DNA of 64,000 bases from Desulfoscipio sp. XC116 (GTDB lineage: Bacteria; Bacillota; Desulfotomaculia; Desulfotomaculales; Desulfallaceae): the NCBI RefSeq assembly GCF_039851975.1, contig NZ_CP156660.1, positions 2,237,035-2,301,034 on the forward strand, in the 5' to 3' direction. Position 1 is the stretch's first letter; each line of letters starts with the position of its first letter. Made by a program: the position numbers and the translations under genes. Shown in pieces: positions 49,023-63,715 of the stretch. The notes under the pieces were generated by a model. It made no database searches. It had not been told where the DNA came from and worked only from the letters and a program-made list of their open reading frames with translations.

Positions 49023-49199
49023 TGTTCCTGCCGCCCTGTAATGCCCGAAAGCTGATGGTGTTGCCTGTCCAGAAGTTGCCATATATAATGACCATATCAT
49101 GAAGAAAGGAAAGACGCCCCTTTTTTTGGTGTACTGCTGCAGCAACAGCAATACCAGGGGCGCCACCACGTATGGTCATTTTAACAGAATATGAGCTAA

Positions 49200-49721
49200 T
49201 TGAAAACCTTGAAAAAAGTGTTTTTTGTAAAGAGCGCGGAGCAGATTCCCTGTCCCTGTTGTAACGGGCCACTGGATGTCATCGGCAGCCGGCAACGCAA
49301 GTACATAAATGGCCTTGGCGATCAGATCGTGCTCATCATTCGCCGGCTCCGTTGTGAACACTGCCGTCGGATCCATCACGAACTTCCGGATATACTCGTC
49401 CCGTACAAACGCCACAGCAGAAAAAGCATTGAGGCGGTCATAGCCGGAGACACCGCACTGACCGTCACCGCTGACGAATCCACATTAGGCCGTTGGCGCA
49501 GTTGGTTTAGTGAAATGTATTATCACTTCCTGGGTTGCCTGGCCTCCATCGCTACCTTACTCGGTAACCAATCTGTGAAAGAATCGTCCTGTCTTTCCCA
49601 GTCTGCGCTCACAAGGATTTGGGACTATGTTGGCAACGCCACCGGCTGGCTGGCCAGAGTTGTCCGATCAGTGGCAAACACAAATTGTTGGGTACATACC
49701 CGTTCTGCATTCCCGTCCTGA
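49200..49721 (+). CDS. DUF6431-like zinc-finger protein of the transposon
   Basis: 173 residues. Two CxxC pairs, CPCC near 18 and CEHC near 52, are followed by RRIHHELPDILVPYKRH, a block I associate with the DUF6431 family. A helical region follows, then an Ala/Ser-rich end. The TTG start has no good ribosome site. The position just inside the left end suggests a role in end recognition or regulation (inference). Confidence 0.7.
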   Translation: MKTLKKVFFVKSAEQIPCPCCNGPLDVIGSRQRKYINGLGDQIVLIIRRLRCEHCRRIHHELPDILVPYKRHSRKSIEAVIAGDTALTVTADESTLGRWRSWFSEMYYHFLGCLASIATLLGNQSVKESSCLSQSALTRIWDYVGNATGWLARVVRSVANTNCWVHTRSAFPS

Positions 49722-49738
49722 CGGTCAGGATATAAACT

Positions 49739-49773
49739 CATGCTAAGCCTAAAAATTAGGGGGTTTTAGCATG
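49739..49773 (+). promoter_or_regulatory. Hairpin covering the transposase start codon
   Basis: CATGCTAA and TTAGCATG pair across a loop that contains the AGGGGG ribosome site. The transposase ATG (49771) lies in the 3' arm. The structure could hold back translation. Confidence 0.55.
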
Positions 49774-51123
49774 AAAGACCAACAAAAGGCCGAAGAGATT
49801 GCCGCTCAGCGGATGCAACTACTATCCCCGCTGCTAGCGGACGGGCTTGATGCGGCCAAAATCAGGGAAATTAAGAAAGATATCTGCCAGCAGACCGGAC
49901 TATCCGAGCGTACGCTGCGCAGATACCTGGCCCAGTACCGGGCAGTCGGCTTTAGGGGACTAAAACCTAAAGGCAAAGGCCGGCAAACCGAAGAAGCTAT
50001 ACCATCAAATATCCTAACTCAGGCCATCCTGTTGCGTCGTGAGGTGCCCGGTCGCAGCATCGCTCAGATCATTCAGATTATGGAATGGGAAGGGCTGATC
50101 CAGGAAGGGCGGATTAAACGCAGCACCCTGCAGGAGAAGTTGGCCGAGAAAGGCTACAGCACAAGACAGATGCGCATGTACTCCGACAGCGGCGTGGCGG
50201 CTCGGCGATTCCAAAAGAAGCACCGCAACCAGCTCGTACATTCCGACATCAAATACGGCCCCTACCTGCCAATCGGCAAGGATGGCGCTAAAAAGCAGGT
50301 CTACCTGGTCACCTTCATCGACGATGCCACCCGCTTTGTGCTGCACGGCGAGTTCTACCCGACGCTGGATCAGGTCATTGTAGAAGATTGCTTCCGTAAA
50401 GCGATTCACAAATACGGAGTTCCCGAAGCGGTATATTTCGACAACGGTAGCCAGTATCGCACTAAATGGATGCATCGCACCTGCAGCAAATTAGGCACCC
50501 GGCTAGTATTTGCAAAACCGTACTCTCCGGAGGCAACCGGTAAAGTAGAAAGGTTTAACCGGGTGGTGGACGCCTTCTTAGGCGAGGCCAAACTGGAAAA
50601 ACCACAATCGCTGGACAAGTTAAATGAGCTGTTTTGGGTCTGGCTGGAGGAGTGCTACCACAACAAGCCGCATTCCGGGCTAGATGGTAGCGCCAGCCCG
50701 CATGCTGCCTACCGCAGTGACAACAAGGCACTAAGGTATTTGGATCCACAAACCATCGCTAACGCCTTTTTGCACTGTGAAAAACGGAAAGTGGACAAGG
50801 CTGGCTGCATCAGCTTTAACGGCAATAAGTACGAAGTCGGGCTGCCGTTTATCGGGTGTAAAGTGCAAGTCATCTACGACCCCGCTAACATCACTGAACT
50901 GACTATTGAATATGAAGGGCACGCACCCTGGACAGCTAGGCAGTTAGTAATCGGCCAGCGAGCCGGGAAACGCCCCCCGCTGCCGGAACACCTGCAGCCC
51001 AAGCCCGCCGAATCGTCGCGACTCCTGGCTGCAGCCGCCCTGAAAAACCAGCAGCGTAAAGAGCAGCAGGCTCCAGCCATTTCTTTTAGAGCCGTGAACA
51101 AGGAGGATAACAGTCATGTTTGA
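49771..51123 (+). CDS. DDE transposase (integrase core, rve type)
   Basis: 450 residues. N-terminal HTH (TGLSERTLRRYLAQYR, about 48-63) and a second HTH (RSIAQIIQIMEWEG). The retroviral-integrase-like core has the first aspartate in HSDIKYGP (near 154), the second in YFDNGSQYR (near 230), and the glutamate in GKVERFNRVV (near 265). A Mu-like beta-barrel and a basic Gln-rich tail follow. It overlaps the ATPase gene by 8 bases. Full length, so potentially active. Confidence 0.92.
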   Translation: MKDQQKAEEIAAQRMQLLSPLLADGLDAAKIREIKKDICQQTGLSERTLRRYLAQYRAVGFRGLKPKGKGRQTEEAIPSNILTQAILLRREVPGRSIAQIIQIMEWEGLIQEGRIKRSTLQEKLAEKGYSTRQMRMYSDSGVAARRFQKKHRNQLVHSDIKYGPYLPIGKDGAKKQVYLVTFIDDATRFVLHGEFYPTLDQVIVEDCFRKAIHKYGVPEAVYFDNGSQYRTKWMHRTCSKLGTRLVFAKPYSPEATGKVERFNRVVDAFLGEAKLEKPQSLDKLNELFWVWLEECYHNKPHSGLDGSASPHAAYRSDNKALRYLDPQTIANAFLHCEKRKVDKAGCISFNGNKYEVGLPFIGCKVQVIYDPANITELTIEYEGHAPWTARQLVIGQRAGKRPPLPEHLQPKPAESSRLLAAAALKNQQRKEQQAPAISFRAVNKEDNSHV

Positions 51124-51916
51124 ATCCTTCTACGGCCTGTCTAAAACACCGTTCTCCCGGGACATCCCAACGGATCAGTTGTACCAATCGCTGATGCTAG
51201 ATGAGACACTGGGCCGATTGGAATATGCCGCCCGTAGGCAACTTTTCGCCGTGGTTACCGGTGACTGCGGTACCGGTAAAACAACCACCATCCGCCTGTT
51301 CAAGGCCTCTTTAAATCCGGCCATGTTCATGGTGATGTATCTGGCGGACTCCAAACTTACCCCCCGGCATTTCTACAAGGGCCTATTGGAACAGCTAGGC
51401 TGTGAAGCCAAGTTTTATCGCGGCGACGCCAAGCGCCAGTTGCACCGGGAAGTCGAACTCATGCGCGGTATTCAGCAACTGCAGCCGGTTGTTATCGTAG
51501 ACGAAGCGCATCTTTTGGACAAAGAAATGCTGGAAGAGGTACGATTCTTGTTGAACTTTAAAATGGATGCCCAAAGTCCTATGGCCCTGATCTTGGTGGG
51601 TCAGAGCGAACTGTGGGATAAGTTCCAGCTTCAAGCGTACGCCGCCATCCGCCAACGGATCGACCTGCAGTGTAAACTGCCGCACCTGGACCGTTCCCAA
51701 GTCGGGGAATATATTAATCGGCACCTGGCTTATGCCGGCGCCGAACACGATATCTTTTCAGATAATGCGGTTGATCAGGTGTTCCGGTATTCCAGCGGTG
51801 CAGTCAGGCTTGTTAACAAAGTCTGCACCCATTGCTTGCTCTATGGAGCTCAAAACGGTCGTCGGATTATTGATGATCACATGGTGAAGTTGGTTATCCA
51901 GGGAGAATTGTTATAA
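51116..51916 (+). CDS. ExeA/TniB-like AAA ATPase of the transposon
   Basis: 266 residues. The N-terminal FYGLSKTPFSRDIPTDQLY block, Walker A GDCGTGKTT near 48, Walker B VVIVDEAHLLD near 128 and sensor-1 LILVGQSEL identify the ExeA/TniB group. In ATPase-assisted transposons such proteins choose the target and activate the transposase. Translation is coupled by the 8-base overlap with the transposase gene. Confidence 0.92.
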   Translation: MFESFYGLSKTPFSRDIPTDQLYQSLMLDETLGRLEYAARRQLFAVVTGDCGTGKTTTIRLFKASLNPAMFMVMYLADSKLTPRHFYKGLLEQLGCEAKFYRGDAKRQLHREVELMRGIQQLQPVVIVDEAHLLDKEMLEEVRFLLNFKMDAQSPMALILVGQSELWDKFQLQAYAAIRQRIDLQCKLPHLDRSQVGEYINRHLAYAGAEHDIFSDNAVDQVFRYSSGAVRLVNKVCTHCLLYGAQNGRRIIDDHMVKLVIQGELL

Positions 51917-52008
51917 TTCTCCCTTCCCCGGGCCGGTGGGCACTAAGTCCGTCAATTCACGGACAACTAACACCGTCTATTGCTGGACGTTACAGATCGT
52001 CAGTAACA

Positions 52009-52471
52009 TTACACTCCAAATCGCTAACGGAACAGCAACTCCAGTTGATTGATAAGACGCAATAATTAAACGAGCTTCGTTGCTATAACTGCCACTTGGT
52101 AAAGTATTGTTAAAAGTCCTAACCGGGCTGTCATTTACTTTAAAAACTACTTTGTCCTGACTATCTCTTTCTATAGATATTTTTACGGTAGTTCCATCAG
52201 CATATAAACTACCATATTTCGGAACTCCTTCTCCGTTAGAGAAAACACGCCATTTTAACACGCCGTTTTGTTTCCAACCATCTTGATCTTTACAGGATAA
52301 GCCACATTCATAGGTACCAATGCCAACATAAAAATTAATATAGTCCCATATTAATGGTAACGTTTTAGCAGGACTGCCACTTGGTAGAGTTATTTTTGCT
52401 TGAAAACCTTTATCGGCAAGATTACCTGTTTTAATTTTAACTAATTTAGCATACTCAGTAGTCTCACTCAT
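52009..52471 (-). pseudogene. N-terminal part of the transposon-split orphan-family gene
   Basis: 154 codons from ATG to PLAIWSV, after which the frame enters the transposon and stops within about ten codons. It aligns with the N-terminal 155 residues of the paralogue at 61537: TEYAKLVK vs TEYAKVIR, INFYVGIGTYECGLS vs INFYLAVIGSSTGYECGLS, and ARLIIAS vs ARLIIAA. There is no signal peptide or membrane segment; the composition suggests an all-beta fold. AAGGAGA lies 8 bases before the ATG, and promoter P1 lies 45 bases before it. Confidence 0.88.
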
Positions 52472-52515: not shown

Positions 52516-52544
52516 TAAAGACAAAAAAATGGTTGAAATGTAAA
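52516..52544 (-). promoter_or_regulatory. Regulon promoter P1
   Basis: TTTACA (52539-52544), 16 bp, GTCTTTA (52516-52522), continuing TTAT. It lies 45 bases before the split orphan-family gene. Confidence 0.75.
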
Positions 52545-52550
52545 CGTTGG

Positions 52551-52594
52551 TCACCAAAAAAAAATTAAGCCCGTTTACATCCGAGCTTAATTTA
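52551..52594 (-). terminator. Terminator of the gene at 52666
   Basis: An AATTAAGC/GCTTAATT stem, followed by about ten T on the minus strand. It separates the copper-amine-oxidase-N-like gene from promoter P1. Confidence 0.75.
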
Positions 52595-52665
52595 AGAGAA
52601 GTTACCATATTTGAAGTTATGTGCGAAACTCATATATCATTTAGCATACGGCTTGAACATCCGTT

Positions 52666-53826
52666 TTATGGAGTCAGCTTTTCATGGCTCTGGCTTGTTA
52701 AACTGACTTTGTAACGCCCAGTGTTATTTCTTTTCTCTTTAAAGTCGCTAGTACCTAAACTATAAAAACCGGAAATATAAATACCATCATCTTTAATTTG
52801 CCAATTATCCCTTTCAGCCGTAAAACTACCAATGGGCCCTTCCTTCAAGATGCAACCATAAACATATCCCTTTACGCCTATATATTCACTACTATAATCT
52901 TGTAGACTTAATTTCAGCAAATTACTGTGTTCATCTACAGCAAACCACTGGTCGATTCCCGGACCACTAACTAAAATATACATATAATCATTGGTAAACT
53001 TTATATCAAAAATTGCTTCAGAATAAATTAGCTTTAGTTTTCCATCTTTAAACAAATAAATGTAATCATAAGGGGCTCCTTCTGGCTCATTATGGAAGAC
53101 CAAGTATTCTTTTCCTGAAATATTGTACCAATGACATGGGGCACCTTCATACGGATTATAACTTTTAAAATGATATTCACTAATACCACTACCCCAATTT
53201 TTCAAATACAGTTCTCCATCATTCTTATAATAAACAAGTAAGATGTTGTCTGCATATAAGATTTTTTTACCTTCAATAACCCAGGAAAATAGCGTATAAT
53301 AGCTATTATAATCATAATTTTCAATCCATTCAGGAGAGCCGGCTATAATAATTAGGTTATAATCTTGAATATAACTCACCGATTTTCCTAAAGCTTCACC
53401 AATAGCCCGCAAAGGTAAACAAGTACGGCCACTGTAGGTTTTAGCTGCTACGTCTAACTCTTTTTTGGCCCCATTAACATACATGTTCTTGCTGCCTAAG
53501 AAAAGTTCTAATTTTTGACTATTTAGCATTACAGTAACCTTATTATCTTGCGAAGTCCAATCCACCTTAGCGCCGAAAGCTTCGCCAATTGTGCGCAGTG
53601 GAGCCATGGTACGGCCATATTCAACAAATGGCTTATCTCCACTGGCCTCATTACCGTTTACAAAGAATCTCTCTTGTCCTATCTCCATAATGATAATACC
53701 GGTAAAATCTTCTTTCGATAAATTCATGTTGTAATCAAAGAGGGAAGCTGCATGCGCAATAGGTGAAAAGATAGCAAATAAGCCCCAAAAAGCAATGAAC
53801 ATAAAACCCATATATTTCCCCACCAT
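52666..53826 (-). CDS. Secreted protein with copper-amine-oxidase N-terminal-like domain, copy 1
   Basis: 386 residues from the ATG at 53824-53826 (GAGGAGA 5-8 bases upstream). The signal peptide FMFIAFWGLFAIFSPIAHA ends at AHA. Two ~60-residue stalk repeats follow, of the type named copper amine oxidase N: FVEYGRTMAPLRTIGEAFGA then RTCLPLRAIGEALGKSV. The rest (about 170-386) is rich in Tyr and Asp and looks like a beta-propeller/DUF5050-like sensor fold. This domain name does not imply oxidase activity. A weak GTCTTTT sits upstream without a matching -35. Confidence 0.82.
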   Translation of the reverse strand: MVGKYMGFMFIAFWGLFAIFSPIAHAASLFDYNMNLSKEDFTGIIIMEIGQERFFVNGNEASGDKPFVEYGRTMAPLRTIGEAFGAKVDWTSQDNKVTVMLNSQKLELFLGSKNMYVNGAKKELDVAAKTYSGRTCLPLRAIGEALGKSVSYIQDYNLIIIAGSPEWIENYDYNSYYTLFSWVIEGKKILYADNILLVYYKNDGELYLKNWGSGISEYHFKSYNPYEGAPCHWYNISGKEYLVFHNEPEGAPYDYIYLFKDGKLKLIYSEAIFDIKFTNDYMYILVSGPGIDQWFAVDEHSNLLKLSLQDYSSEYIGVKGYVYGCILKEGPIGSFTAERDNWQIKDDGIYISGFYSLGTSDFKEKRNNTGRYKVSLTSQSHEKLTP

Positions 53827-53908
53827 ATCCTTCTCCTCTACTATTTTTTTCAACTTTAACATAAAAGACTAAAATAAAATATTTAATTGATAATTATAGC
53901 CAACTAAT

Positions 53909-54343
53909 TCAATATGTTGACGTAGCGGAATGTAATGATTGAGTTTCCAACAAATTACCAGAAGCATTATAAACTTTAGCGGTAGCACATACCTGATAGG
54001 TGCCTCTAGCAACGTAATAATCCTCTTCTATATCGGCGATGGAGACCCCGGTCGCTGACGCAGACCATGTCTTAATTGTGCTCCAGCCACTGCCGGTAGA
54101 CTTTTGCAATTTGACAGTCAGCTTTGTTGTGTGCGAACTATTGTAAGCTGAAGCAAGCCCCATGCAGGTGGCTTTTCCCGACGAATTGATAGATAAGCCT
54201 GGACTTAACAATGAAATGTACGTGAATTGAGGAGTTATTAACTCTTGGGTCTTTACTTCTTTTGTCCCGTCAACCGCATAAGCAGGGATGATGGAAAAGA
54301 CAGCCATAAGGACAAAAATACCCATGCAAATAGATCTTTTCAT
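53909..54343 (-). CDS. Small secreted protein (DUF6147-like), copy 1
   Basis: 144 residues from the ATG at 54341-54343 (GGGAGG upstream). The signal peptide (ICMGIFVLMAVFSIIPAYA) ends AYA. The mature part has PQFTYISLLSPGLSINSSGKATC and Ser/Thr-rich beta strands (TTKLTVKLQKSTGSGWSTI, GTYQVCATAKVY), resembling clostridial proteins listed as DUF6147 (from memory, unsure). A truncated paralogue lies at 63438. Its expected regulon promoter is missing; the nearest upstream one (P2) is on the far side of the IS110 gene. Confidence 0.78.
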   Translation of the reverse strand: MKRSICMGIFVLMAVFSIIPAYAVDGTKEVKTQELITPQFTYISLLSPGLSINSSGKATCMGLASAYNSSHTTKLTVKLQKSTGSGWSTIKTWSASATGVSIADIEEDYYVARGTYQVCATAKVYNASGNLLETQSLHSATSTY

Positions 54344-54813
54344 AAAATAAGAACCTCCCTTAATAATCTTCAATTATCTTTAAATACCTTCGTTTTTCTT
54401 AGTTTTTCAATTTGTGCTTGGAGAGCTCGTCTCTTGTTATTTACATCAATGTGTAATTCTGGATGATGGCGTGTGACCTTCACCAAGGCCGCGTGTTTTT
54501 TGTATTGTGGCCAGTGGGATTCCACACCATCTCCCGGCAGCAAACCTCCCATGTCTTCCTGGGTCTCCGCCCGAAATTCCTTCGTCCTGCCTATCCAAGA
54601 GGTGGAACGTCAGTCATGCTCCTTAACCGGGTCTTTGCCCTAATGGAAAAATTCAACCTGACTGTCCCGGCTCTCCGTTCTCAAGGTGCGTTATAAAGCA
54701 TGTGGATAATGTTTGGGTCATTCACATCATCGTCTGGATGGGCTGCGGCACTCTCCACTCGGCGATGATGTGCTTATGTTGTTTCTATGTTTTGTTAGGA
54801 TGTCTCTACGTCT
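54344..54813. other. Gap between DUF6147 gene and IS110 transposase
   Basis: 470 bases. A minus-strand open stretch (54370-54552) ends in a basic, coiled-coil-like HIDVNNKRRALQAQIEKLRK segment with no start signal, possibly a gene relic. The plus strand has a Pro-rich open frame that I do not trust. One end of the IS110 element should fall here, but I cannot place it. Confidence 0.4.
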
Positions 54814-56094
54814 TTATGCGGCTGTTTTCACCGACTGTTGAATATCGCCCATCATCTTCTCCGGATTGTAATCAACGCCCTTGCTGAGAATGGCGTAGAA
54901 TACACGGATGAGTTTTCCACAGAGGGCAACAATGGATTGCATCTTGTTTAGCGGGTTCTTTTCCCTGGTCAGGTTGCGGTGGTGCAGTTCCCTAAACTCC
55001 GGATTCTTGCCCAGGATGGCGATCATGGTCATGAACAGCCCATGTCGTAACCGCTTCCGTCCCCGGTGACTGATGGTGGTCTTTCCTTTGTGCTTGCCGG
55101 AACTGTTCTCTACCAGGTTGAAGCCGGCCAGCTTTTGTATCTGCCGTGGGTCTTCGAACCTGTGGATATCACCGGTTTCACCGACAAAGGTTGTGGCTGT
55201 AACCAAACCAACTCCCTTGATGCCCAAGAGTTTGACTGCGTTCGGAACTTGAAGCAACAGTTCCAATATCAGTTGTTCCAAGCGTTCAAGCTGTACACAG
55301 TACAATTCGTACTCAGCAAGCAGGTTCTGCAAGCTGGCTTCTGAAGCTACATGGCCGTTGGTTCTGCCAATGCTGTTGGTTGCAGCTTTTACCAGCGCTT
55401 GTGCTCTTTTTATGCCCACAGAGCGCTTTACAACTGTCCTCCAGGTGGCCAGTATTTTGTCCGCGCCGGCTTCCAAAACCTTGGCTGGTGTAGAATATAT
55501 CCGAAGCGTCAGAAGCGCCGTTTTTCCTGTCCATTTCTTGAATACACCGTCAAACTCTGGAAACCGGATATCCAGCCAGCGAACAACCCTGTTGTGGATA
55601 GCAGTTAGCTGCTTTTGCAGCCGCTCTCTTTCATCCACCGCTTCCCGTAGTTCTTGATAGATCTTGTCCGGGATGTACACCTCCCGGTAACGCCCGTCTT
55701 TCACCAGCATGGCGATTGTCTTCGGGTCCTTGCGGTCATTCTTGGTGGGGCTGTTGTCATCCAGTTCCTTGGTGCGTTTGACATGGAATGGGTTGACTAT
55801 GGCCAGTTTATGGCCTTGGCGCTTGAGATGGTCACCCAATGAAAACCAGTAATGTCCAGTGGGCTCAAAGCCGGCGATGATTTCCGACTTTCCTTGCTGC
55901 TTGCAAATGTCCTGCATCCATCGGTCCAGGAGTTTAAATCCTTCCGCCGTGTTGCTGAATTTCAGCAGCTTACCCAGTTCAATCCCTCTGTAATCAAAGG
56001 CTCTGGCGTAGTGGGTTTCTTTCCCAATGTCGATTCCGACTACCAAGGTTTCAATTCTGATTTGCATAATCTTCTCGTTTTGTGTACGCTTCAT
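54814..56094 (-). CDS. IS110-family transposase (DEDD)
   Basis: 426 residues from the ATG at 56092-56094 (GAGGAGGCG 6-10 bases upstream). The N-terminal RuvC-like DEDD domain has D in VVGIDIGKETHYA, E in GFEPTGHYW and D/D in NDRKDPKTIAML. The C-terminal Transposase_20 domain has GIKGVGLVTATTFVGE and the serine-containing ENSSGKHKGKTTISHRG. The length is normal and there are no stops, so it may be active. IS110 elements are guided by a bridge RNA from the element's non-coding end, which should lie just upstream. Confidence 0.93.
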   Translation of the reverse strand: MKRTQNEKIMQIRIETLVVGIDIGKETHYARAFDYRGIELGKLLKFSNTAEGFKLLDRWMQDICKQQGKSEIIAGFEPTGHYWFSLGDHLKRQGHKLAIVNPFHVKRTKELDDNSPTKNDRKDPKTIAMLVKDGRYREVYIPDKIYQELREAVDERERLQKQLTAIHNRVVRWLDIRFPEFDGVFKKWTGKTALLTLRIYSTPAKVLEAGADKILATWRTVVKRSVGIKRAQALVKAATNSIGRTNGHVASEASLQNLLAEYELYCVQLERLEQLILELLLQVPNAVKLLGIKGVGLVTATTFVGETGDIHRFEDPRQIQKLAGFNLVENSSGKHKGKTTISHRGRKRLRHGLFMTMIAILGKNPEFRELHHRNLTREKNPLNKMQSIVALCGKLIRVFYAILSKGVDYNPEKMMGDIQQSVKTAA

Positions 56095-56233
56095 GTAGAG
56101 GCGCCTCCTCAATTTTGGTTTTGTGCCTTCTTTTGCGGGATTAGCACATTACCATTGTATTGATGGGCGTCTCTTTTTTCAAAGGTCGTTTTTAATGATT
56201 ACAGGAATGCTCCTTTTAAATGTCTTTCAATAA

Positions 56234-56262
56234 TAAAGACAACCAAGAAGGTTTTTTGCAAC
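56234..56262 (-). promoter_or_regulatory. Regulon promoter P2 (orphaned next to IS110)
   Basis: GTTGCA (56257-56262), 16 bp, GTCTTTA (56234-56240), then TTATT and an AAAAGGAG ribosome-like site, after which the IS110 region begins. The sequence resembles P9, which drives the second DUF6147 copy. Confidence 0.72.
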
Positions 56263-56302
56263 AAGATTTCTTTCCTTATTTATATTTTTCCTTCGTTAAA
56301 TT

Positions 56303-56446
56303 TATATATTTCACTCCTCCGGCCACCTTTATCGCCGTATCTTTTTCCGTCTGTGCCCAAATCATAAACATACGGTTACTTATTCCTGAAATAGTTATAA
56401 CCAGGAAGTGTTTCACTATAAGCGTTCTCTCATACCCCGTTGATAC
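56303..56446 (-). pseudogene. Decayed 3' end of an anti-sigma (DUF4367-like) gene
   Basis: 48 codons matching the end of the anti-sigma protein at 59622 (NRMFMIWAQTEKDTAIKVA vs NRMFVIRAQTGKDTAIKVA). The stop codon is lost and the upstream part is absent. It is followed by P2, as the intact gene and the 63719 copy are followed by P7 and P9. Confidence 0.82.
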
Positions 56447-56485
56447 TTATTATTTTTAAAATTAGAAGAAATGTAACCATTGAAG

Positions 56486-56890
56486 TCATTTTTTATCTGT
56501 ACCATCAATCTTTAAGAGAATGTCTTTGAGCTTTTGCGGAAACGGTATCTCCATTCTTGCGGCGTTTTCGAGTATGCTAATACCTTCATTGGATAGATAA
56601 AACATGATAAGCATTGTTCTTAGAAAACTGCCTGAACCAATTATATATTGGTCAATTATATTTCCTAGTGCAACCAAGGCAAATATCAATACCTTTTTGG
56701 AGATACCTTTAAATCCGATATTACTTGAAACTCTTTTCTCGTAGATTGCCAACAGCAAGCCGGTTAAATAATCAATCGCCATAAACGCAACCAGCGCATA
56801 AATTAGAGAGTCAACTTCCCCTATTATAGATCCTAAAATACATCCTAAAAGAACAATTATTATTTTAAAATTGTTTACAAACGTATCCAT
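56486..56890 (-). CDS. Holin of the TcdE/UviB (Holin_4_1) type
   Basis: 134 residues with about three to four membrane segments (IIIVLLGCILGSIIG, LIYALVAFMAIDYLTGLLLAIY, KVLIFALVALGNIID). The YLTGLLLAIYEKRVSSNIGFKGISKK block is typical of the family, and the C-terminus is charged. Relatives make membrane pores for phage lysis or release large toxins and bacteriocins without a signal peptide. It begins one base after the sigma-factor stop codon and so is cotranscribed and probably translationally coupled. No endolysin or phage structural genes are nearby. Confidence 0.86.
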   Translation of the reverse strand: MDTFVNNFKIIIVLLGCILGSIIGEVDSLIYALVAFMAIDYLTGLLLAIYEKRVSSNIGFKGISKKVLIFALVALGNIIDQYIIGSGSFLRTMLIMFYLSNEGISILENAARMEIPFPQKLKDILLKIDGTDKK

Positions 56891-56891
56891 T

Positions 56892-57446
56892 TTAGCTCAC
56901 CCTATGCAAGTTTTTTTCAAACCATTTTTTTAATTTTTGTAAAGCTCGTTTTTCCGTCTGGTTGACTGCTTGTCTACTAATTTTATAAATACCTGCAGTC
57001 TCCGTCACTGTATAGCCCAACAGATAGACCATCTTGACGATGGATAATTCCGATTCAGTCAGCACATGATCAATACCCGTCAATTCTAGTTTTAAATATG
57101 AGTCAGTGGTAGCCAATGCAGCTTCGGCATAATATAGTTCGCTATCGCTAAGAGCCGAATACGGCACAAAATCCTGAACTCTTTTCATGGCCAGCAACCT
57201 TTTTATATAGTTACTGCGAATAGAAGTACACATATAAGAAATAAGGATTCCCTCACTCGTATCGCGCATACAATCAATCCGAATATTATTGAGAAACTCG
57301 ATGAAATCAAAAAGGAGATCATTATAAGCATCATCATAATAAAGCTTATAAGCATACTTTTTTAATAATGGATCGAATTTTCCAATTAGTCTTAAAGTAG
57401 CACTGCTATCACCTGTTTGTGATTGGACAACCAGATCCTTAGTCAT
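56892..57446 (-). CDS. TcdR/UviA-like alternative sigma factor
   Basis: 184 residues from the ATG at 57444-57446 (AAGGGTGGT upstream); an earlier in-frame start lacks a site and crosses promoter P3. Region 2 is FDPLLKKYAYKLYYDDAYNDLLFDFIEF, then an arginine/lysine-rich stretch, and region 4 has a good HTH (GYTVTETAGIYKISRQAVNQTEKRALQKLKKW). Length, region-2 wording and the downstream holin resemble TcdR, BotR, TetR and UviA group-5 sigma factors of clostridial toxin and bacteriocin loci. Three copies of its presumed promoter precede it. Confidence 0.85.
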   Translation of the reverse strand: MTKDLVVQSQTGDSSATLRLIGKFDPLLKKYAYKLYYDDAYNDLLFDFIEFLNNIRIDCMRDTSEGILISYMCTSIRSNYIKRLLAMKRVQDFVPYSALSDSELYYAEAALATTDSYLKLELTGIDHVLTESELSIVKMVYLLGYTVTETAGIYKISRQAVNQTEKRALQKLKKWFEKNLHRVS

Positions 57447-57469
57447 TAGGCACACCACCCTTCGACTGC

Positions 57470-57498
57470 TAAAGAGATGGAATGCCAAACTTTGTAAA
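57470..57498 (-). promoter_or_regulatory. Regulon promoter P3, proximal sigma-gene promoter
   Basis: TTTACA (57493-57498), 16 bp, CTCTTTA (57470-57476), 24 bases before the sigma-factor ATG. It implies positive autoregulation. Confidence 0.75.
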
Positions 57499-57541
57499 CC
57501 CTAAAAATTAATTTTCCAACATCAATTTCACCTTCTTCAAT

Positions 57542-57590
57542 AAAAAAGGAACAGGAATCGCAGCAATTTAACTGCTTTCCTGCCCTTTTA
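57542..57590 (-). terminator. Terminator inside the sigma-gene leader
   Basis: The AAAAGG-AGGAA-GCAG stem pairs with CTGC-TTCCT-CCTTTT and is followed by TTTTTT on the minus strand. It lies between P4 and the sigma gene, so transcripts from P4 and P5 would stop here unless terminated conditionally. Confidence 0.7.
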
Positions 57591-57725
57591 CACTCTTTGA
57601 GATATAATATTTTTACGTTAGGAAACGCAATTTATTGCCAGCAAATAGCATACCGTTCATCCCATATATTTACTTTAATGACTCAATAATGAGTTATTTA
57701 CATTTTTATCTTTTCTTATATCTAT

Positions 57726-57754
57726 ATAAGACAATCCAAGAATTAATTTGCAAC
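57726..57754 (-). promoter_or_regulatory. Regulon promoter P4, middle sigma-gene promoter
   Basis: GTTGCA (57749-57754), 16 bp, GTCTTAT (57726-57732). It would make a ~175-nt RNA ending at the terminator at 57542. Confidence 0.6.
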
Positions 57755-57856
57755 ATTTCCTTTTATACTTTTCTACTTTTCCTCCGCTTTACACAGAAAA
57801 ATAAAAAAATAAGTCTTCCCCAAACAGGGAAAAGACACAGAAGTTGTTCACCATAA

Positions 57857-57885
57857 TAAAGAGAAAGAAGAAAGCATATTGTAAA
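57857..57885 (-). promoter_or_regulatory. Regulon promoter P5, distal sigma-gene promoter
   Basis: TTTACA (57880-57885), 16 bp, CTCTTTA (57857-57863) and TTAT after it. It is back to back with P6, 30 bases apart. Confidence 0.7.
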
Positions 57886-57915
57886 CAAAAAATTTAAAAA
57901 ACTTTTTAAATAGGT

Positions 57916-57944
57916 GTTGCAAAAAGCCTCATTGGTTGTCTTTT
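57916..57944 (+). promoter_or_regulatory. Regulon promoter P6
   Basis: GTTGCA (57916-57921), 16 bp, GTCTTTT (57938-57944) on the plus strand, divergent from P5 and pointing to the lipoprotein gene 500 bases away. Confidence 0.65.
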
Positions 57945-57948
57945 AATA

Positions 57949-58461
57949 GTAAAAGTACAATGTCCAATTTTAAGCACATATGGCTAATAAGCGCAGGGCT
58001 TGATAAATTGCTTGAAAACAATCTTTTTATTCAACAGAAGAAATATATTAACTAGGCTTTTACAATCTTTGGGCAAATACAAAACGTTGGCAATATTTAA
58101 CTATAATTAGTTTTATTGGCGGTTCTCAATCGGTAGAATGAATTACCCGCAAGTTTAAAGAAATTCCAGGAAATGAGGGGATCTACATGGTGTAACGCAA
58201 AGTAAAGTAAACGAAACTGATATTTCTAAATATATAGTACACATTTTAGCAATAAAGCAGTAAAAAGTCGGGATTTACTATTATGCATAAATATGGTATA
58301 ACTTAAAAATAATTATCAGGTGCGTTACTGCAAAATAGCAAAGCTCTTTGCTAAATATAACAATGCTACTAGGGGACTTATTTTATAGAAATTACCAAAA
58401 ATAATATAGGAAAAATTTAAAAGCAATCTAGAAAATATAAATTGAGGAGAGATAATAGCAC
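57949..58461 (+). other. Long leader or decayed region between P6 and the lipoprotein gene
   Basis: About 510 AT-rich bases. Only very short frames occur (for example ATGGTGTAA at 58188). An AGCAAAG/CTTTGCT palindrome lies near 58336-58353. It is possibly the remains of a small gene once served by P6. Confidence 0.4.
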
Positions 58462-59022
58462 ATGACATTAACATCTAAGCCAAATTTACGAAGATTTATG
58501 GTTTTAATACCAATATTCTTATTAATGATAACATTTGGGGTAATAATGGGATGCACAGACACAGAAACACCATCAGAACAGAATTCTGAAAGTATTCAAA
58601 TACTTTCAGGAGCAATAGATGTTGAAGGTAAAGGTATTAGCATAACATTTACAGATAATGAATCCAATAAAAACGATATGCGCTATATTGTTCACGATGA
58701 AGACATTATAGCAGTTGTAAACCAATTAAACGCTGCAGGAGCAGAAGTTATTTCTATCAATGATGAATGGTTGATTTCCACAAGCAAAATAAAAGCAAAT
58801 GGAATGTCGATTAAAGTAAATAACAATGATTATAACAGTCCCTTTATTATCAAAGCTATAGGAGATCCTGATGCTCTAAGTGATGCATTAAAAGCAGACA
58901 AAAGCTATGTTGGTTTATTACGCAATGATGTGGGGGTAAAAATAGAAAAGGAAGACAAATTGTTAATACCCAAATATAAAGAAAACATATATTTTCGGTT
59001 TGCCAAGCCAGTAAAAAATTAA
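58462..59022 (+). CDS. DUF881-like lipoprotein
   Basis: 186 residues. The lipoprotein signal ends in a lipobox-like VIMGC (C31). The domain IIAVVNQLNAAGAEVISIND, ISTSKIKANGMSIKVNN and SPFIIKAIGDPDALSDAL matches the DUF881 fold (YlxW/YlxX-like), but the N-terminal coiled coil usual for that family is missing. It is probably attached to the outer face of the membrane. The GAGGAG site lies about 14 bases before the ATG. It ends before a strong terminator; P6 is the only visible upstream promoter. Confidence 0.8.
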   Translation: MTLTSKPNLRRFMVLIPIFLLMITFGVIMGCTDTETPSEQNSESIQILSGAIDVEGKGISITFTDNESNKNDMRYIVHDEDIIAVVNQLNAAGAEVISINDEWLISTSKIKANGMSIKVNNNDYNSPFIIKAIGDPDALSDALKADKSYVGLLRNDVGVKIEKEDKLLIPKYKENIYFRFAKPVKN

Positions 59023-59055
59023 AGAATTCGTTGGTTTTTGTGGGAATATAATTAA

Positions 59056-59096
59056 AAATCTCCTTCCTGACTAAGAGCCAGGAAGGAGATTTTTTA
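59056..59096 (+). terminator. Terminator of the DUF881-like gene
   Basis: A perfect AATCTCCTTCCTG stem with an 8-nt loop and TTTTTTAG on the plus strand. Confidence 0.88.
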
Positions 59097-59140
59097 GTTT
59101 GTTTCGGCAACCACCGGGTAAGGTAGCTAAACCGGTAGTA

Positions 59141-59365
59141 TCAAAAACGAATGAGTGACCAACCTATTGGAAGAGACCGATCTAGATATTCTGTTATTAT
59201 CTGTCCATCAGATAACTTTCCAATAATATCATAATTTGTCCCGGGCCCCGACCGAACATTTAAATAACTTTCAGGGTCTTCCAGCGTAACAGTTACAGGC
59301 CACTCCGAACCTCTATTAGCTGGTCCTTCGTAAAGTAAATATCTTGAAGCAGCGTAACCTCTCAT
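59141..59365 (-). CDS. Short SH3b-domain protein
   Basis: 74 residues from an ATG with AAAGGAG upstream. YLNVRSGPGTNYDIIGKLSDGQII is the core of a bacterial SH3 (SH3_3) domain, which binds cell-wall peptide or glycan. There is no signal peptide, catalytic domain or membrane segment. As the product of a regulon promoter (P7, 67 bases upstream) next to a holin locus it could be cargo that reaches the wall by non-classical release (inference). Confidence 0.78.
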   Translation of the reverse strand: MRGYAASRYLLYEGPANRGSEWPVTVTLEDPESYLNVRSGPGTNYDIIGKLSDGQIITEYLDRSLPIGWSLIRF

Positions 59366-59431
59366 AATGCAACACTCCTTTCTTTAAAATCTAATTGAGA
59401 ATTTTTAACCGGTTATTTTCTTCTCACTGAA

Positions 59432-59460
59432 TAAAGACAACTTTTAGGCTTAAATGTAAA
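59432..59460 (-). promoter_or_regulatory. Regulon promoter P7
   Basis: TTTACA (59455-59460), 16 bp, GTCTTTA (59432-59438), TTC after it. It lies 67 bases before the SH3b gene. Confidence 0.75.
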
Positions 59461-59528
59461 CCCTCTTAAATAAAAACTTTTTATGAAGATAGTTCCTAAT
59501 TAAATAACACCCATTTATTTCACAGAAT

Positions 59529-59571
59529 AAAAAAACCTCCGAGCCATCAATTCACAATGATACTGGAGGCT
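59529..59571 (-). terminator. Terminator of the sigma/anti-sigma operon
   Basis: A CCTCC-AATCATT / AATTGAT-GGAGG type stem with TTTTTTT on the minus strand, just after the anti-sigma gene. Confidence 0.6.
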
Positions 59572-59618
59572 TTATTGGGCTATTAATTTCAAGATTAATA
59601 AGACTATATTTTCCCCCT

Positions 59619-59903
59619 TCGTTAATCTATATATTCCACCCCTTCGGCCACCTTTATCGCCGTGTCCTTTCCCGTCTGTGCCCGAATCACAAACATACGG
59701 TTATTCATTCCCCAGATGATTGTAACCAGGGAGTCTTTGACTACAAGCGTTCCCTCATGCCCGTTGATATCTACCGTTTCAAAGATGGAAGCATTCTCCG
59801 TATCCAGCGCAGGCTTGCTGCCTTCGCTTAATTCCGTATAAGTGATAAAAGAACCCTGCTGATTTTTGAATTCGATTTTTCTTAAAAGTTTACCGTTGGA
59901 AAT
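59619..59903 (-). repeat. 285 bp identical duplication, copy 1
   Basis: By eye, identical to 63716-64000 and probably extending beyond the window. It covers the anti-sigma C-terminus and stop. Identity at DNA level means a recent duplication or gene conversion. Confidence 0.88.
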
Positions 59904-60380
59904 AGCACTGACTTTAAATCCGGCCGGTATATAGGTCGGGATATAAGCTTTATGGCAGTTTATAATTAAACTGCCACTATCCGAACCGTTGTCCTTTAAT
60001 TCAAGGGACGTATATTCCGGTTGGATATCCATCAATAAATTCAATACCCTGACTTTCAATGCTTCTACGCTCGTCACGGCAATAGACGATAGAACAATCA
60101 CAATCAGCATGGCTACAGCAAATCTGTTTAAGGCCTTAAAAATACGTTGTGTTCTGGCATAAGTCAGCGGCTTTTTTAAATGAGCGTCCAGTTGTTGGCT
60201 AAACCTTTTGAATGCTTCTGCGGAAGGCAGGAATTCCACGGCATTTTTTAGCTTCTCTTTTTCTTCCAAAAAAAGTTTTCCTTCTTTTTCCGCAACGTCG
60301 TGCATAATCAATTTAAACAGACTATCTTCATATTCCTCATAAAGTTTTTTTCGAATTTGTTCCGGGTTGTTCTTCGGCAC
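59622..60380 (-). CDS. Anti-sigma factor-like membrane protein (DUF4367-like)
   Basis: 252 residues: a cytoplasmic part (1-90), one membrane helix (FAVAMLIVIVLSSIAVTSV, about 90-108) and an extracellular domain with YIPTYIPAGFKVSAIS, the usual DUF4367 block, ending NRMFVIRAQTGKDTAIKVAEGVEYID. It overlaps the sigma gene by 44 bases, so it is the likely anti-sigma partner. The GTG start has AAGGAG upstream. Its last 285 bases recur identically at 63716-64000. Confidence 0.86.
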   Translation of the reverse strand: MPKNNPEQIRKKLYEEYEDSLFKLIMHDVAEKEGKLFLEEKEKLKNAVEFLPSAEAFKRFSQQLDAHLKKPLTYARTQRIFKALNRFAVAMLIVIVLSSIAVTSVEALKVRVLNLLMDIQPEYTSLELKDNGSDSGSLIINCHKAYIPTYIPAGFKVSAISNGKLLRKIEFKNQQGSFITYTELSEGSKPALDTENASIFETVDINGHEGTLVVKDSLVTIIWGMNNRMFVIRAQTGKDTAIKVAEGVEYID

Positions 60381-60951
60381 GCATACTCATCTCCTTATCC
60401 ATGAGTTTTTGGGCTTCTCTTCGGGCCCTTGTCGAATATTGCCGCACACTGCCGGGAACTATCCCGAAAGTTTCTGATATTTCCGCATCAGTCATTCCCA
60501 ATATGTATTTAAAATACAATAGATCTTTCTGCTTTTTCGGAAGCCTTAATATGGCATTCCTTATTTCTTCCATCTCTTCCTGATGAATAATCCTATCTTC
60601 CGTGGTGTTTTCAAGGCTGGGAACCTTCCCGGCCAGATCCATATCTTCTCCATAATACGCATGTTTTTTCTGTACATCTCTGCGTTTTACAAAGTTAATT
60701 GCCACGCTCCTGGAAGTATAGACAACGTAAGCAGCTATCTTGCAACTGTCTAGAGTCCGAATTAAAGATATCTTTTCAATTAATTTCATGAAAGTATCGT
60801 TAATTAAATCTTCCACATTGTCCGCATCATGGGTAATATTATAAACAGTCTTTCTTACAATACCATAATAATCTCGATATAAGTTCAGCATAAAAGCCTT
60901 GTCATCTTCGCCTACTATTGCGGCTATTATCATCATGATCACTTGCATCAC
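60337..60951 (-). CDS. ECF-like sigma-70 family sigma factor
   Basis: 204 residues. Region 2 is FMLNLYRDYYGIVRKTVYNITHD followed by NVEDLINDTFMKLIEKI; region 4 is LPKKQKDLLYFKYILGMTDAEISETFGIVPGSVRQYSTRARREAQKLM. It is cotranscribed with the overlapping membrane anti-sigma gene, a surface-signal responsive pair. The motif shared by P1-P9 is not found on its own upstream strand, so those sites more likely belong to the other sigma factor. Confidence 0.88.
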   Translation of the reverse strand: MMQVIMMIIAAIVGEDDKAFMLNLYRDYYGIVRKTVYNITHDADNVEDLINDTFMKLIEKISLIRTLDSCKIAAYVVYTSRSVAINFVKRRDVQKKHAYYGEDMDLAGKVPSLENTTEDRIIHQEEMEEIRNAILRLPKKQKDLLYFKYILGMTDAEISETFGIVPGSVRQYSTRARREAQKLMDKEMSMRAEEQPGTNSKKTL

Positions 60952-61069
60952 ACCCTTTGTTATTGATTATACAGGCATTTAGAGAGTAATTGGCGACAAT
61001 AAACAAAACATCTTCAGTGAGCTAAAGTATGACTTGATAAAAAAATTATAGAAAAATTTAGAAATGAGT

Positions 61070-61098
61070 GTTGCAAATGTTTTTTTAGATTGTCTATA
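61070..61098 (+). promoter_or_regulatory. Regulon promoter P8
   Basis: GTTGCA (61070-61075), 16 bp, GTCTATA (61092-61098) on the plus strand, 440 bases before the intact orphan-family gene. Confidence 0.62.
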
Positions 61099-61536
61099 TA
61101 GATAAGAAAGCTTTAAAGGAAAATATTGCATATCAAAAATATACCTGAATCCAATTTGATTTTAGACAACAATTATCACAATACCATCGGCTTGGATGTG
61201 CCGCAGCTCCGTTCGAGCAGATGCTTCTTGAACTGCAGAGGAAAAAGAAGTTAACTTGGTTTTAATCAAAAGCCAATATGGTTTTTGATTAAAATAATAG
61301 AATCGAAGGAGAGGTGATTCATTTAAAACAAAAAGTCTAGATTCTACCATATTAATAAGACCCAATATAGTAATGCAATCACACTTATTTCTTCGCGCTC
61401 CTCCCGATCTCGTCAATTGCCAGGTTCAGTTAAATCGTATATCCGGAACAAGAAGATGCAGGAAATTTTCATGACAACTACAAATTTTAATCCATCTAAA
61501 AATAAAAAAATTACGAAAAATTAGGAGGGCTTAAAA
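61099..61536 (+). other. Long leader between P8 and the orphan-family gene
   Basis: 438 bases without a convincing gene. A GGAGAGGTG site at 61308 opens only eight codons. A plus-strand frame open to 61524 ends right before the next ribosome site but has no start signal. It may be a decayed gene. Confidence 0.4.
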
Positions 61537-62199
61537 ATGGGAACTCCAGCAACTGAATATGCAAAAGTTATTCGTTGGTGCGCCCCAAGCACTGTGTATG
61601 GAATTAAAACAACGATTACGCTTCCGACTCAAGCTTCGATTGGCGGCTCCAACGGCAACGGCTTTATTAACTTTTACCTTGCAGTAATCGGTTCGAGTAC
61701 AGGCTATGAGTGCGGTCTTTCTACTTACAAATCCAAAGCAGATGAGGATAAATGGCATTGGTTTTGGAACACTGGCTCCGCCAATGACGGAGGCAGTTAC
61801 AATATCGCAGGTAGTGCAGCTGTGCCGGTTGAACTTTCAATCAATGCCTCAAAGACACTGAATTTCAAAGTGAACGGCACAGTGGTCAAAACCTTTGTTG
61901 GGGCTACGGGAACGTTTAGTTCTTTAACATCGGCACGGCTTATTATCGCTGCCTGTGATCAAGACTTTGGCTCCAATGTTCCAAGTCCTCTTCCAAACTG
62001 GAATACGCTGCATTATCAAGTGACATGCAGCAATATCCAATATCGGAACAGCAGCGGGACCTGGGTTACCATTTCCGGAAGTCCTGACCCCACGGAATTC
62101 TGGCCAACGCCAAGTGCCAGTCATCCCCATACCGGAACACCGGCCGATTACACGCGCTCAGTCTCGACCGGGAAAATCATTGCCTCCCTTAAACGTTAA
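61537..62199 (+). CDS. Orphan-family protein, intact copy (predicted all-beta)
   Basis: 220 residues with no family that I recognise. The composition is rich in Ser, Thr, Gly, Asn and Trp with alternating hydrophobic strands: GIKTTITLPTQ, GFINFYLAVIGSSTGYECGL, LSINASKTLNFKVNGTVVKTF, ARLIIAA. This suggests a jelly-roll or lectin-like sandwich. The C-terminal ~65 residues (NIQYRNSSGTWVTISG) may be a second small domain. No signal peptide or membrane helix. AGGAGG lies 9 bases before the ATG, and it has its own terminator. A second copy was split by a transposon. Confidence 0.85.
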   Translation: MGTPATEYAKVIRWCAPSTVYGIKTTITLPTQASIGGSNGNGFINFYLAVIGSSTGYECGLSTYKSKADEDKWHWFWNTGSANDGGSYNIAGSAAVPVELSINASKTLNFKVNGTVVKTFVGATGTFSSLTSARLIIAACDQDFGSNVPSPLPNWNTLHYQVTCSNIQYRNSSGTWVTISGSPDPTEFWPTPSASHPHTGTPADYTRSVSTGKIIASLKR

Positions 62200-62204
62200 A
62201 TTTA

Positions 62205-62238
62205 TTAAAAAAAGCCCTGATTTCCAGGGCTTTTTTTG
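62205..62238. terminator. Bidirectional terminator
   Basis: AAAAAAAGCCCTG and CAGGGCTTTTTTT pair around a 5-nt loop. It serves the orphan-family gene and the convergent gene at 62261. Confidence 0.88.
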
Positions 62239-62260
62239 ATAAATTTCAATTTGTGATCCG

Positions 62261-63142
62261 TTACATATTTGCCGGTAGTTTTAGGATCAAATCGGAGTAT
62301 ATCTTCATACTGCCTGTAACTCGCCCTAATTCTCCATAATTGGCAATTGTTTTGTCTCCTATCCTTCCAAAACAAACAGAACCGCGACTAGCGGGAATCC
62401 TCGTAATCGTAATATCTCCAGCCGTTTTCACATAAGGTTCCCCCAGGGCGCCATCAAGAATTTGCCCGACAACCTCTGCTTTTCCGTTTTTAATTTCTAC
62501 AAAGGACTGAACGCGAGAATCCGAAAAAATGTAATTATCCGCTTTCCCTTCAGGGAAAACATAATCCTCACTATCATATGTCTTAGGGTCCTTGAAGCTT
62601 AAGATTTCAAAGTTTGCTGTCAAGGGCAATGAGATAGCCGCTTTGCGCGCAGCTTGCAAATCGTCAGTCTGAGTCAACACGTCAGAATTCATGGTGTAGT
62701 CTGCTGATTTAACAAAAACAATATCCCTAAGCGCTTCATATTGAACGTTATAACCCAACGCTTCCGCTACGAAACGTACGGGGACAAAGACACGATTGTT
62801 CTGTATTTGAGCCGACACGTCCAGTTGGATTGCAGTCGAATTTTTATAGGCAGTCTTACTGTTGATGGTGACTTTAACAAAGTTGCTGCTTTGATCGGAA
62901 ATGGTCGCTGTATTTGTCTTACTATCCCAGGTGTAGGTCAGTCCCAGTGAAGAGAGCGCTCTTATTGGAACAAGCAGCCGCCCGCTGCTAAGCACAGGAT
63001 GGGTATCCGTCTGTACAAATTCCCCGTTAACGTTAATTTCCGCTGGACGGGAAAGAGTATTTACTGCGGCAAACGCAGGGGCTGCAAAATTTTGCATGCC
63101 CAGCACTAAAGCTAAGATTAGTATAATCCCTTTTTTCTTCAC
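62261..63142 (-). CDS. Secreted protein with copper-amine-oxidase N-terminal-like domain, copy 2
   Basis: 293 residues from the GTG at 63140-63142 (GGAGG 8 bases upstream). The signal peptide (KKGIILILALVLGMQNFAAPAFA) ends AFA. The stalk domain has INVNGEFVQTDTHPV, GRLLVPIRALSSLGLTYTWD, and NNRVFVPVRFVAEALGYNV. A C-terminal domain of ~130 residues of unknown type follows. It shares only the stalk domain with the gene at 52666. No regulon promoter is visible in front of it. Confidence 0.83.
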   Translation of the reverse strand: MKKKGIILILALVLGMQNFAAPAFAAVNTLSRPAEINVNGEFVQTDTHPVLSSGRLLVPIRALSSLGLTYTWDSKTNTATISDQSSNFVKVTINSKTAYKNSTAIQLDVSAQIQNNRVFVPVRFVAEALGYNVQYEALRDIVFVKSADYTMNSDVLTQTDDLQAARKAAISLPLTANFEILSFKDPKTYDSEDYVFPEGKADNYIFSDSRVQSFVEIKNGKAEVVGQILDGALGEPYVKTAGDITITRIPASRGSVCFGRIGDKTIANYGELGRVTGSMKIYSDLILKLPANM

Positions 63143-63437
63143 CGTAGTATCCTCCATTTTCTTTGATAAATTCATGACGTTAAGCATAATTATTACATAC
63201 TTTGGTAAGTGGGGCGTTCTTTTGAATTAGTGTCCCCTTTTTTAGCATTCATGTCTTCTATACTAGAAAAGATTACTAAAAGTCATTATGCTGGTGATTA
63301 AATTTTTATCTATGATTTATCTATGATTATATTGATAAAAATTTAGAAGGGCAACGTCATTAAATTCCAATTTGTTCTCTTCTGATGCTACCGGTACCTG
63401 TTGTTCAAATGACTTCCATTCAGATTATTTAAGTTTC
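63143..63437. other. AT-rich gap
   Basis: 295 bases between the secreted protein gene and the truncated DUF6147 copy. No gene, repeat or promoter that I can support. Confidence 0.4.
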
Positions 63438-63629
63438 TCAACGTTTTCGTCCTATACAGGCAGCTTTCCCTGACGAGTTGATACCTGGACTTAACAACGA
63501 AATGTACGTGAATTGAGGAGCTGCCAATTCGTGTGTTCTTTCGTTTTTTGTCCCGTCAACCGCGTAAGCCGGAACGGTGGAGAAAACAGCCATAAGGACA
63601 ATAATAACCAGGCAGATAAATTTTTTCAA
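63438..63629 (-). pseudogene. Truncated DUF6147-like secreted protein, copy 2
   Basis: 63 codons from the TTG at 63627-63629 (AAAGGAGG upstream). The signal peptide and APQFTYISLLSPGINSSGKA match copy 1 (53909-54343); then the frame ends in CIGRKR and stop, and the following DNA no longer resembles copy 1. The 3' two-thirds were lost. P9 sits 34 bases before the start, so a short secreted peptide could still be made. Confidence 0.8.
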
Positions 63630-63662
63630 ACTAAAAACCTCCTTTAAAATATTTTTTAATAG

Positions 63663-63691
63663 TAAAGACAACAAAGAAGGTTTTTTGCAAC
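63663..63691 (-). promoter_or_regulatory. Regulon promoter P9
   Basis: GTTGCA (63686-63691), 16 bp, GTCTTTA (63663-63669), CTATT after it. The spacer is almost identical to that of P2. Confidence 0.75.
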
Positions 63692-63715
63692 AAGTTTTTT
63701 GCTTTTTATATCTCC

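Follow-up and report, generated by a model that had tools for sequence, protein, structure and literature searches.

The question raised by this locus is which sigma factor, or factors, would read the nine closely alike promoter-like sites gathered at one end of the window, by which we mean the whole stretch of 64,000 nucleotides analysed from Desulfoscipio sp. XC116 (contig NZ_CP156660.1). In an earlier note these sites were reduced to the pattern KTTRCA-N16-STCTWWW and assigned to one sigma factor, encoded at 56892, running a local set of accessory genes. Much of that proposal finds support: the locus has the look of a local regulon under an alternative sigma factor, the product of 56892 is TcdR-like, and the rest of the genome is nearly free of the motif. 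The single sigma factor finds none, as the sites fall into two classes that differ at the base before the -35 hexamer and dissociate from each other in relatives. It is probable, in our judgement, that two sigma circuits act in series: an extracytoplasmic function (ECF) sigma factor would read the class B promoters, one of which opens a gated leader, and the TcdR-like sigma factor made behind that leader would read the class A promoters and serve a holin and a set of leaderless wall proteins.

A regular-expression scan of the 64 kb returned all nine sites at the positions and on the strands first described, and the tally of their -10 elements was confirmed as well (GTCTTTA in 4/9 and CTCTTTA in 2/9). 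When the spacer was varied from 12 to 22 bp, ten matches were obtained at 16 bp and 0 or 1 at each other length. The 48 kb of housekeeping DNA, described before as free of sites, is nearly so; one match had been overlooked, at +41784 (TTTGCA..CTCTTTT), which runs antisense within a gene and looks like chance. The region from 52.4 to 64.0 kb (11.6 kb) holds nine sites, against a mean of 0.058 and a maximum of 2 in 2000 dinucleotide-preserving shuffles counted over any spacer. Over the whole genome (4.26 Mb), which was scanned by pattern searches and not with a position matrix, there are 17 matches, nine within 11.2 kb and eight scattered (binomial tail 1e-19). The reversed pattern gives 15 matches genome-wide, so that the pattern alone is loose and the local density alone is remarkable. 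The eight outside matches were rejected as regulon members; seven of them, including 41784, overlap open reading frames of 70 aa or more. Among these seven is a perfect GTTTACA site at C1:1922038, which sits inside a transporter-like gene.

Since the motif was derived from these same sites, an independent test on the loci of other genomes was needed, and such loci were retrieved by protein similarity alone. In the TcdR-like loci of relatives, TTTACA-N16-[C/G]TCTTT[A/T] is represented by 13 sites at exactly 16 bp and by one at any other spacing. The GTTGCA sites of the relatives' loci are spaced by 16 or 17 bp; the invariant 16 bp spacer therefore holds for all nine window sites but not for the GTTGCA class in other genomes. 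The motif is real, and the nine sites are nearly private to the 11 kb region.

The two -35 forms noticed earlier, TTTACA and GTTGCA, proved to mark two promoter classes. When the patterns were refined and as many as two mismatches tolerated, the window was found to contain five class B sites (TGTTGCAAA-N12-TTGTCTWWW) and four class A sites (GTTTACA-N15-T[C/G]TCTTTW), all of them perfect, and no intermediates between the classes other than a single two-mismatch match at 46312, in housekeeping DNA. The class A consensus is GTTTACA-N16-[C/G]TCTTTA. In an alignment of non-redundant sites (25 GTTGCA and 11 TTTACA), the position just before the -35 hexamer, which the first pattern did not cover, holds G in all 11 TTTACA sites and T in 24 of the 25 GTTGCA sites; the latter also carry AAA after the hexamer and TT before GTCT.

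The classes were next compared in relatives, sampled as 113 genomes of the order for the stricter GTTGCA pattern and as 398 genomes of the phylum for co-occurrence. The stricter pattern matched 23 times, its reversed control once. Over the 398 genomes, those with the full class B signature coincide with those encoding a close homologue of the ECF sigma factor (6/8 versus 12/398, p = 5e-9), and they do so among the TcdR-negative ones as well (p = 3e-5). Four genomes (G096, G446, G289 and G466) have GTTGCA sites near an ECF-DUF4367 gene pair and no TcdR-like sigma factor, and TTTACA-N16-[C/G]TCTTTA was found nowhere in them; the second ECF locus of genome G022 likewise has class B sites near such a pair and no TcdR-like gene there. 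No GTTTACA site occurs in 153 kb of ECF-only loci. The opposite arrangement is seen in G302, a TcdR-only genome that encodes a TcdR-like sigma factor and a holin: it has TTTACA-N16-CTCTTTA before a leaderless SH3-C39 protein, a second TTTACA site, with one base changed, before the sigma gene, and no GTTGCA site. In G452, an ECF fragment at a contig end has its own GTTGCA site.

The proteins that would read the two classes are both encoded in the window on the minus strand. The gene at 56892..57446 encodes a 184-residue sigma factor of the TcdR/BotR/UviA-like group (group V). The protein contains Sigma70_r4 (2.7e-10), matches the sigma70-ECF superfamily model over residues 20-174 just below the cut-off (37.9 against 42.9 bits), and its AlphaFold model matches sigma factors in the PDB. 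Region 4.2 reads ISRQAVNQT; the SRQ (Ser-Arg-Gln) motif, present in 8/11 aligned homologues, has been described as the mark of the TcdR-related group V (PMC4031146). The TcdR-like assignment also draws on the neighbouring holin gene and on the GTTTACA -35 with its fixed 16 bp, one such promoter lying directly before the sigma gene itself. The protein was rejected as BotR itself, since it scores 21.4 bits with TIGR03209 against a cut-off of 138.35; it is related to, and distinct from, that factor. The holin (56486..56890, minus strand) belongs to the toxin secretion/phage lysis family (TIGR01593, Phage_holin_4_1; 92.8 bits, above the cut-off of 40.2), and in relatives the gene of a TcdE-type holin usually follows that of the TcdR-like sigma factor.

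The second candidate is an ECF (group IV) sigma factor (60337..60951, minus strand) consisting of Sigma70_r2 and Sigma70_r4_2 only and scoring 75.3 bits with the sigma70-ECF model, over the 42.9 cut-off. Its gene is overlapped by that of a DUF4367 protein (59622..60380, minus strand), for which the sequence predicts a topology with one probable membrane segment, and the two genes are adjacent or overlapping in the loci mapped. The DUF4367 protein is probably the anti-sigma factor of the pair; a literature search found no paper on DUF4367. The pair (59619-61003) has a second copy, 99.9% identical over 1385 bp, which spans the window end (L018 254-1583), and part of DUF881 is duplicated as well (97%).

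The two classes differ in most of their targets. Class A promoters mostly lie 14-66 bp from their genes (130 and 214 bp in two cases), and their targets in the window, namely the TcdR-like sigma factor, an SH3b protein and member A of an orphan family, have no signal peptides. The promoter GTTTACA-N16-CTCTTTA at 57470..57499 (minus strand) is placed just before the TcdR-like gene and may be autoregulatory; it has a counterpart before the orthologous gene in L020, L021, L046, L047 and L129. Its spacer and flanks contain, around the -10, a conserved and nearly invariant GGCATTCCA/TGGTATGCC dyad, which may be an operator. The promoter GTTTACA-N16-GTCTTTA at 59432..59461 (minus strand) stands 66 bp before the gene of the leaderless 74-residue SH3b protein (59141..59365, minus strand), a promoter-gene pair shared with L067, and that at 52516..52545 (GTTTACA-N16-GTCTTTA, minus strand) stands 44 bp before the leaderless orphan-family A gene (51977..52471, minus strand). 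The fourth, GTTTACA-N16-CTCTTTA at 57857..57886 (minus strand), is followed by a strong terminator and no gene directly downstream; in G022 its match is the region that carries the promoter of a CHAP gene, and it is likely an orphaned promoter. In relatives, class A targets include a SleB-type hydrolase, a CHAP protein and M14-SH3 and C39-SH3 proteins, mostly without a signal peptide, and they match phage endolysin families.

Class B targets are DUF6147-type proteins, lipoproteins and other exported proteins (mostly with Sec or lipoprotein signals), a few regulators and the tcdR-like gene. In the window, the site at 56234..56263 (minus strand; TGTTGCAAA-N12-TTGTCTTTA) belongs to the gene of a small exported protein, named DUF6147-type in the earlier note (53909..54373, minus strand). 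From the site at 57726..57755 (minus strand), some 280 bp ahead of the TcdR-like gene, the leader RNA is predicted to start. On the plus strand, the site at 57915..57944 lies 517 bp before the gene of a DUF881 lipoprotein-like protein (58462..59022, plus strand); a homologue with one mismatch stands before DUF881 in G022. The site at 61069..61098, likewise on the plus strand and divergent from the ECF gene, lies 438 bp before the orphan-family B gene (61537..62199, plus strand). The position divergent from the ECF gene is conserved in G022, G096 and others. Orphan-family B, 36% identical to A, is leaderless and thereby an exception to the export-signal pattern of the class. The fifth site (63663..63692, minus strand) lies downstream of the second ECF-DUF4367 copy and is followed, at 33 bp, by a truncated DUF6147 gene. 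It is a paralogous copy of site 56234 (83% over 236 bp), so that the two do not count as independent. Matches of GTTGCA with a 17-bp spacer about 160 bases into ECF genes were rejected as promoters, because they encode a conserved YVVYTS stretch. When targets are collapsed to families, which was done by hand and calls for caution, leaderless and signal-bearing products are distributed 6:1 in class A and 1:11 in class B (Fisher p = 0.002).

The account given before of the genes behind the sites needs correction at four places: an IS110 element separates 56234 from its gene, 57857 has no direct gene, the gene after 63663 is truncated and that after 52516 is split. The IS110-type transposase (54814-56112) is inserted between promoter 56234 and the DUF6147-type gene. 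In the orphan-family A region (48826-52471), a transposon encoding a DDE transposase (49771-51123) and an ATPase (51116-51916) has split the gene and displaced its C-terminal part, the remnant of which lies within the open reading frame 48826-49272; an intact copy is present in G022 (L046 8335-9000). The orphan family is predicted to fold as a jelly roll of the lectin/GH16/G1-peptidase kind, with low confidence (mean pLDDT 60), so that no function is claimed for it.

Ahead of the tcdR-like gene the two classes meet: its class A promoter is preceded, at a distance of about 255-285 bp, by a promoter of class B in the window, in each of the two G022 copies, in Pelotomaculum and in G296. Between the two promoters lies a strongly conserved stretch (57526..57719 in the window, minus strand), closed by an intrinsic terminator (-13 to -21 kcal/mol across the five loci). 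The 5' arm of this terminator can pair instead with an upstream element of similar stability, giving a competing antiterminator. As the simplest reading, the leader would be an attenuator that controls whether transcripts begun at the ECF-type promoter continue into the tcdR-like gene; alternatively, it may be a small RNA that merely ends at the terminator. Rfam contains no family for the leader, and in the window it recognises only a 6S RNA elsewhere (11600-11782, minus strand; RF00013, 88 bits).

From the promoter classes, their dissociation, the gene content and the conserved leader, we infer the following order of events. A membrane signal would free the ECF sigma factor from the DUF4367 protein, and the freed factor would transcribe the class B genes for small Sec-exported or lipid-anchored proteins, as well as the tcdR-like leader. 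Competition between terminator and antiterminator would gate read-through, some transcripts passing and yielding the TcdR-like sigma factor, which would then amplify itself via its own class A promoter and switch on the holin. The same factor would transcribe the leaderless wall-active genes (SH3b and the orphan family here; SleB, CHAP, M14-SH3 and C39-SH3 in relatives), and the holin would release their products as TcdE does for clostridial toxins. The signal and export steps are modelled on the established behaviour of ECF/anti-sigma pairs and TcdE-type holins (PMC8103513, PMC3369941, PMC6200909), not on data from this organism.

The view of the earlier note, a single regulon in which the TcdR-like factor reads all nine promoters and tolerates both -35 forms, we regard as unlikely. 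It would account for the equal spacing, for the TTRCA and TCTTTA cores common to both classes and for the fact that both classes surround the TcdR-like genes in the window, L020, L021, L046 and L047. However, it leaves unexplained the GTTGCA sites near ECF-DUF4367 pairs in TcdR-less genomes and their absence from the TcdR-only genome, and the base before the hexamer and the AAA after it separate the classes. Several observations nevertheless weigh against two circuits in series. GTTGCA sites without a close ECF homologue occur in Pelotomaculum G101 (four sites, a case that favours the single regulon), G288 and G017, where a closer search gave ECF matches of 20-29% only; a diverged ECF factor, or the TcdR-like sigma factor itself, may read GTTGCA there. 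The -10 elements of the two classes are nearly alike, which makes cross-recognition plausible. The ECF gene has TATAAT, conserved, and no class B promoter before it in its own direction, the adjacent class B site being divergent, so that positive autoregulation from its own motif is not indicated; such autoregulation is common among ECF sigma factors (about 55%) and no longer a defining rule (PMC8103513). The leader base pairs are nearly all invariant, with one compensatory pair, and covariation therefore neither supports nor opposes the structure. At the Pelotomaculum TcdR locus no holin was found, and among the class A targets of Pelotomaculum there is one with a signal peptide. The assignment of the ECF factor to class B and of the TcdR-like factor to class A is accordingly the best reading of the dissociation and its exceptions, and not a proven one.

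It is very improbable, and already largely refuted, that the sites merely reflect segment duplication, a single ancestral promoter having been multiplied along with its flanking DNA, and not a maintained motif. The ECF-DUF4367 pair is indeed duplicated, and 56234 and 63663 lie in duplicated DNA, but theirs are the only flanks that align; among the remaining seven, spacers and flanks are unrelated, and the hexamers and spacing are kept across bacterial families in both sets of non-redundant sites. A further doubt concerns function. The module might serve self-lysis or act in a bacteriocin-like way, as with UviA/UviB and their bacteriocin, releasing proteins by killing a subset of cells instead of exporting them; we think this possible, though it is not the explanation we favour. 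The holin family spans both roles, the relatives' targets resemble phage endolysins, and the GTTTACA targets lack signals; on the other side, several targets (SH3b alone, the orphan family) have no recognised wall-lytic domain, and no bacteriocin or phage structural gene was seen nearby. Sequence does not distinguish release by lysis from release without it.

The two-circuit arrangement resembles several known systems in part. With the group V loci (TcdR, BotR, TetR, UviA, TpeR) it shares SRQ in region 4.2, the TTTACA -35 mentioned in the earlier note, the autoregulatory promoter, a neighbouring TcdE/UviB-type holin and leaderless products (PMC4031146, PMC4885068). It differs from them in a sigma factor far under the BotR cut-off, the lack of a visible toxin gene, wall-active targets, a -10 of [C/G]TCTTTA, the predicted coupling to an ECF sigma factor and a leader attenuator, and an environmental host of the order of Pelotomaculum. 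A TIGR01593 holin encoded together with the sigma factor, and endolysin-like leaderless partners in relatives, recall TcdE-type or holin-endolysin (type 10) secretion (PMC3369941, PMC6200909, PMC9527704), although here the likeness is known from gene content and the Pelotomaculum locus has no holin. Like ECF/membrane anti-sigma pairs, the system has a two-domain sigma factor whose gene overlaps that of a probable single-pass membrane protein, promoters with 16-17 bp between their elements and exported targets; unlike them, it has TGTTGCAAA as the -35 in place of an AAC-type box, and its sigma gene lacks a class B promoter of its own. A sigma factor upstream of a TcdR-type one is known from SigD control of tcdR in C. 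difficile (PMC3865298), whereas here the upstream factor would be of the ECF type, with a terminator and antiterminator in between.

Almost all that is known of TcdR-type sigma factors concerns their role in switching on clostridial toxins and bacteriocins. Their occurrence with a TcdE-type holin in environmental anaerobes, apparently aimed at wall-active proteins, offers a view of the module apart from toxins. Tentatively, a cascade answering a membrane signal (ECF sigma factor, attenuated leader, TcdR-type sigma factor, holin) may release leaderless wall proteins in such anaerobes, and toxin loci such as tcdR-tcdE may have put the same module to a specialised use at a later time. Judging by the conserved leader, a TcdR-type sigma factor may be gated by both a membrane signal and transcription attenuation, the two promoter classes make precise predictions, open to test, on the specificities of two sigma factors, and the locus may serve as a harmless model for holin-dependent release of leaderless proteins.

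The surroundings of the locus give no support to a phage origin: no toxin, phage structural or bacteriocin genes were seen near it, and the sigma and orphan families were confirmed in no viral contig, the matches being three of 29-31% in unannotated human faecal phage records. The second TcdR-like gene of G022 (L047 14214-14799) is interrupted, with promoters, leader and holin intact. G096 has a class B promoter before yet another ECF-like sigma gene, a third and different one (L063 6960-7514), and the class B set may therefore include control of further regulators. In Pelotomaculum terephthalicicum (L021 1-8758) the TcdR-like locus adjoins conjugation genes (a VirB4-like ATPase and others), which suggests carriage on an integrative element.

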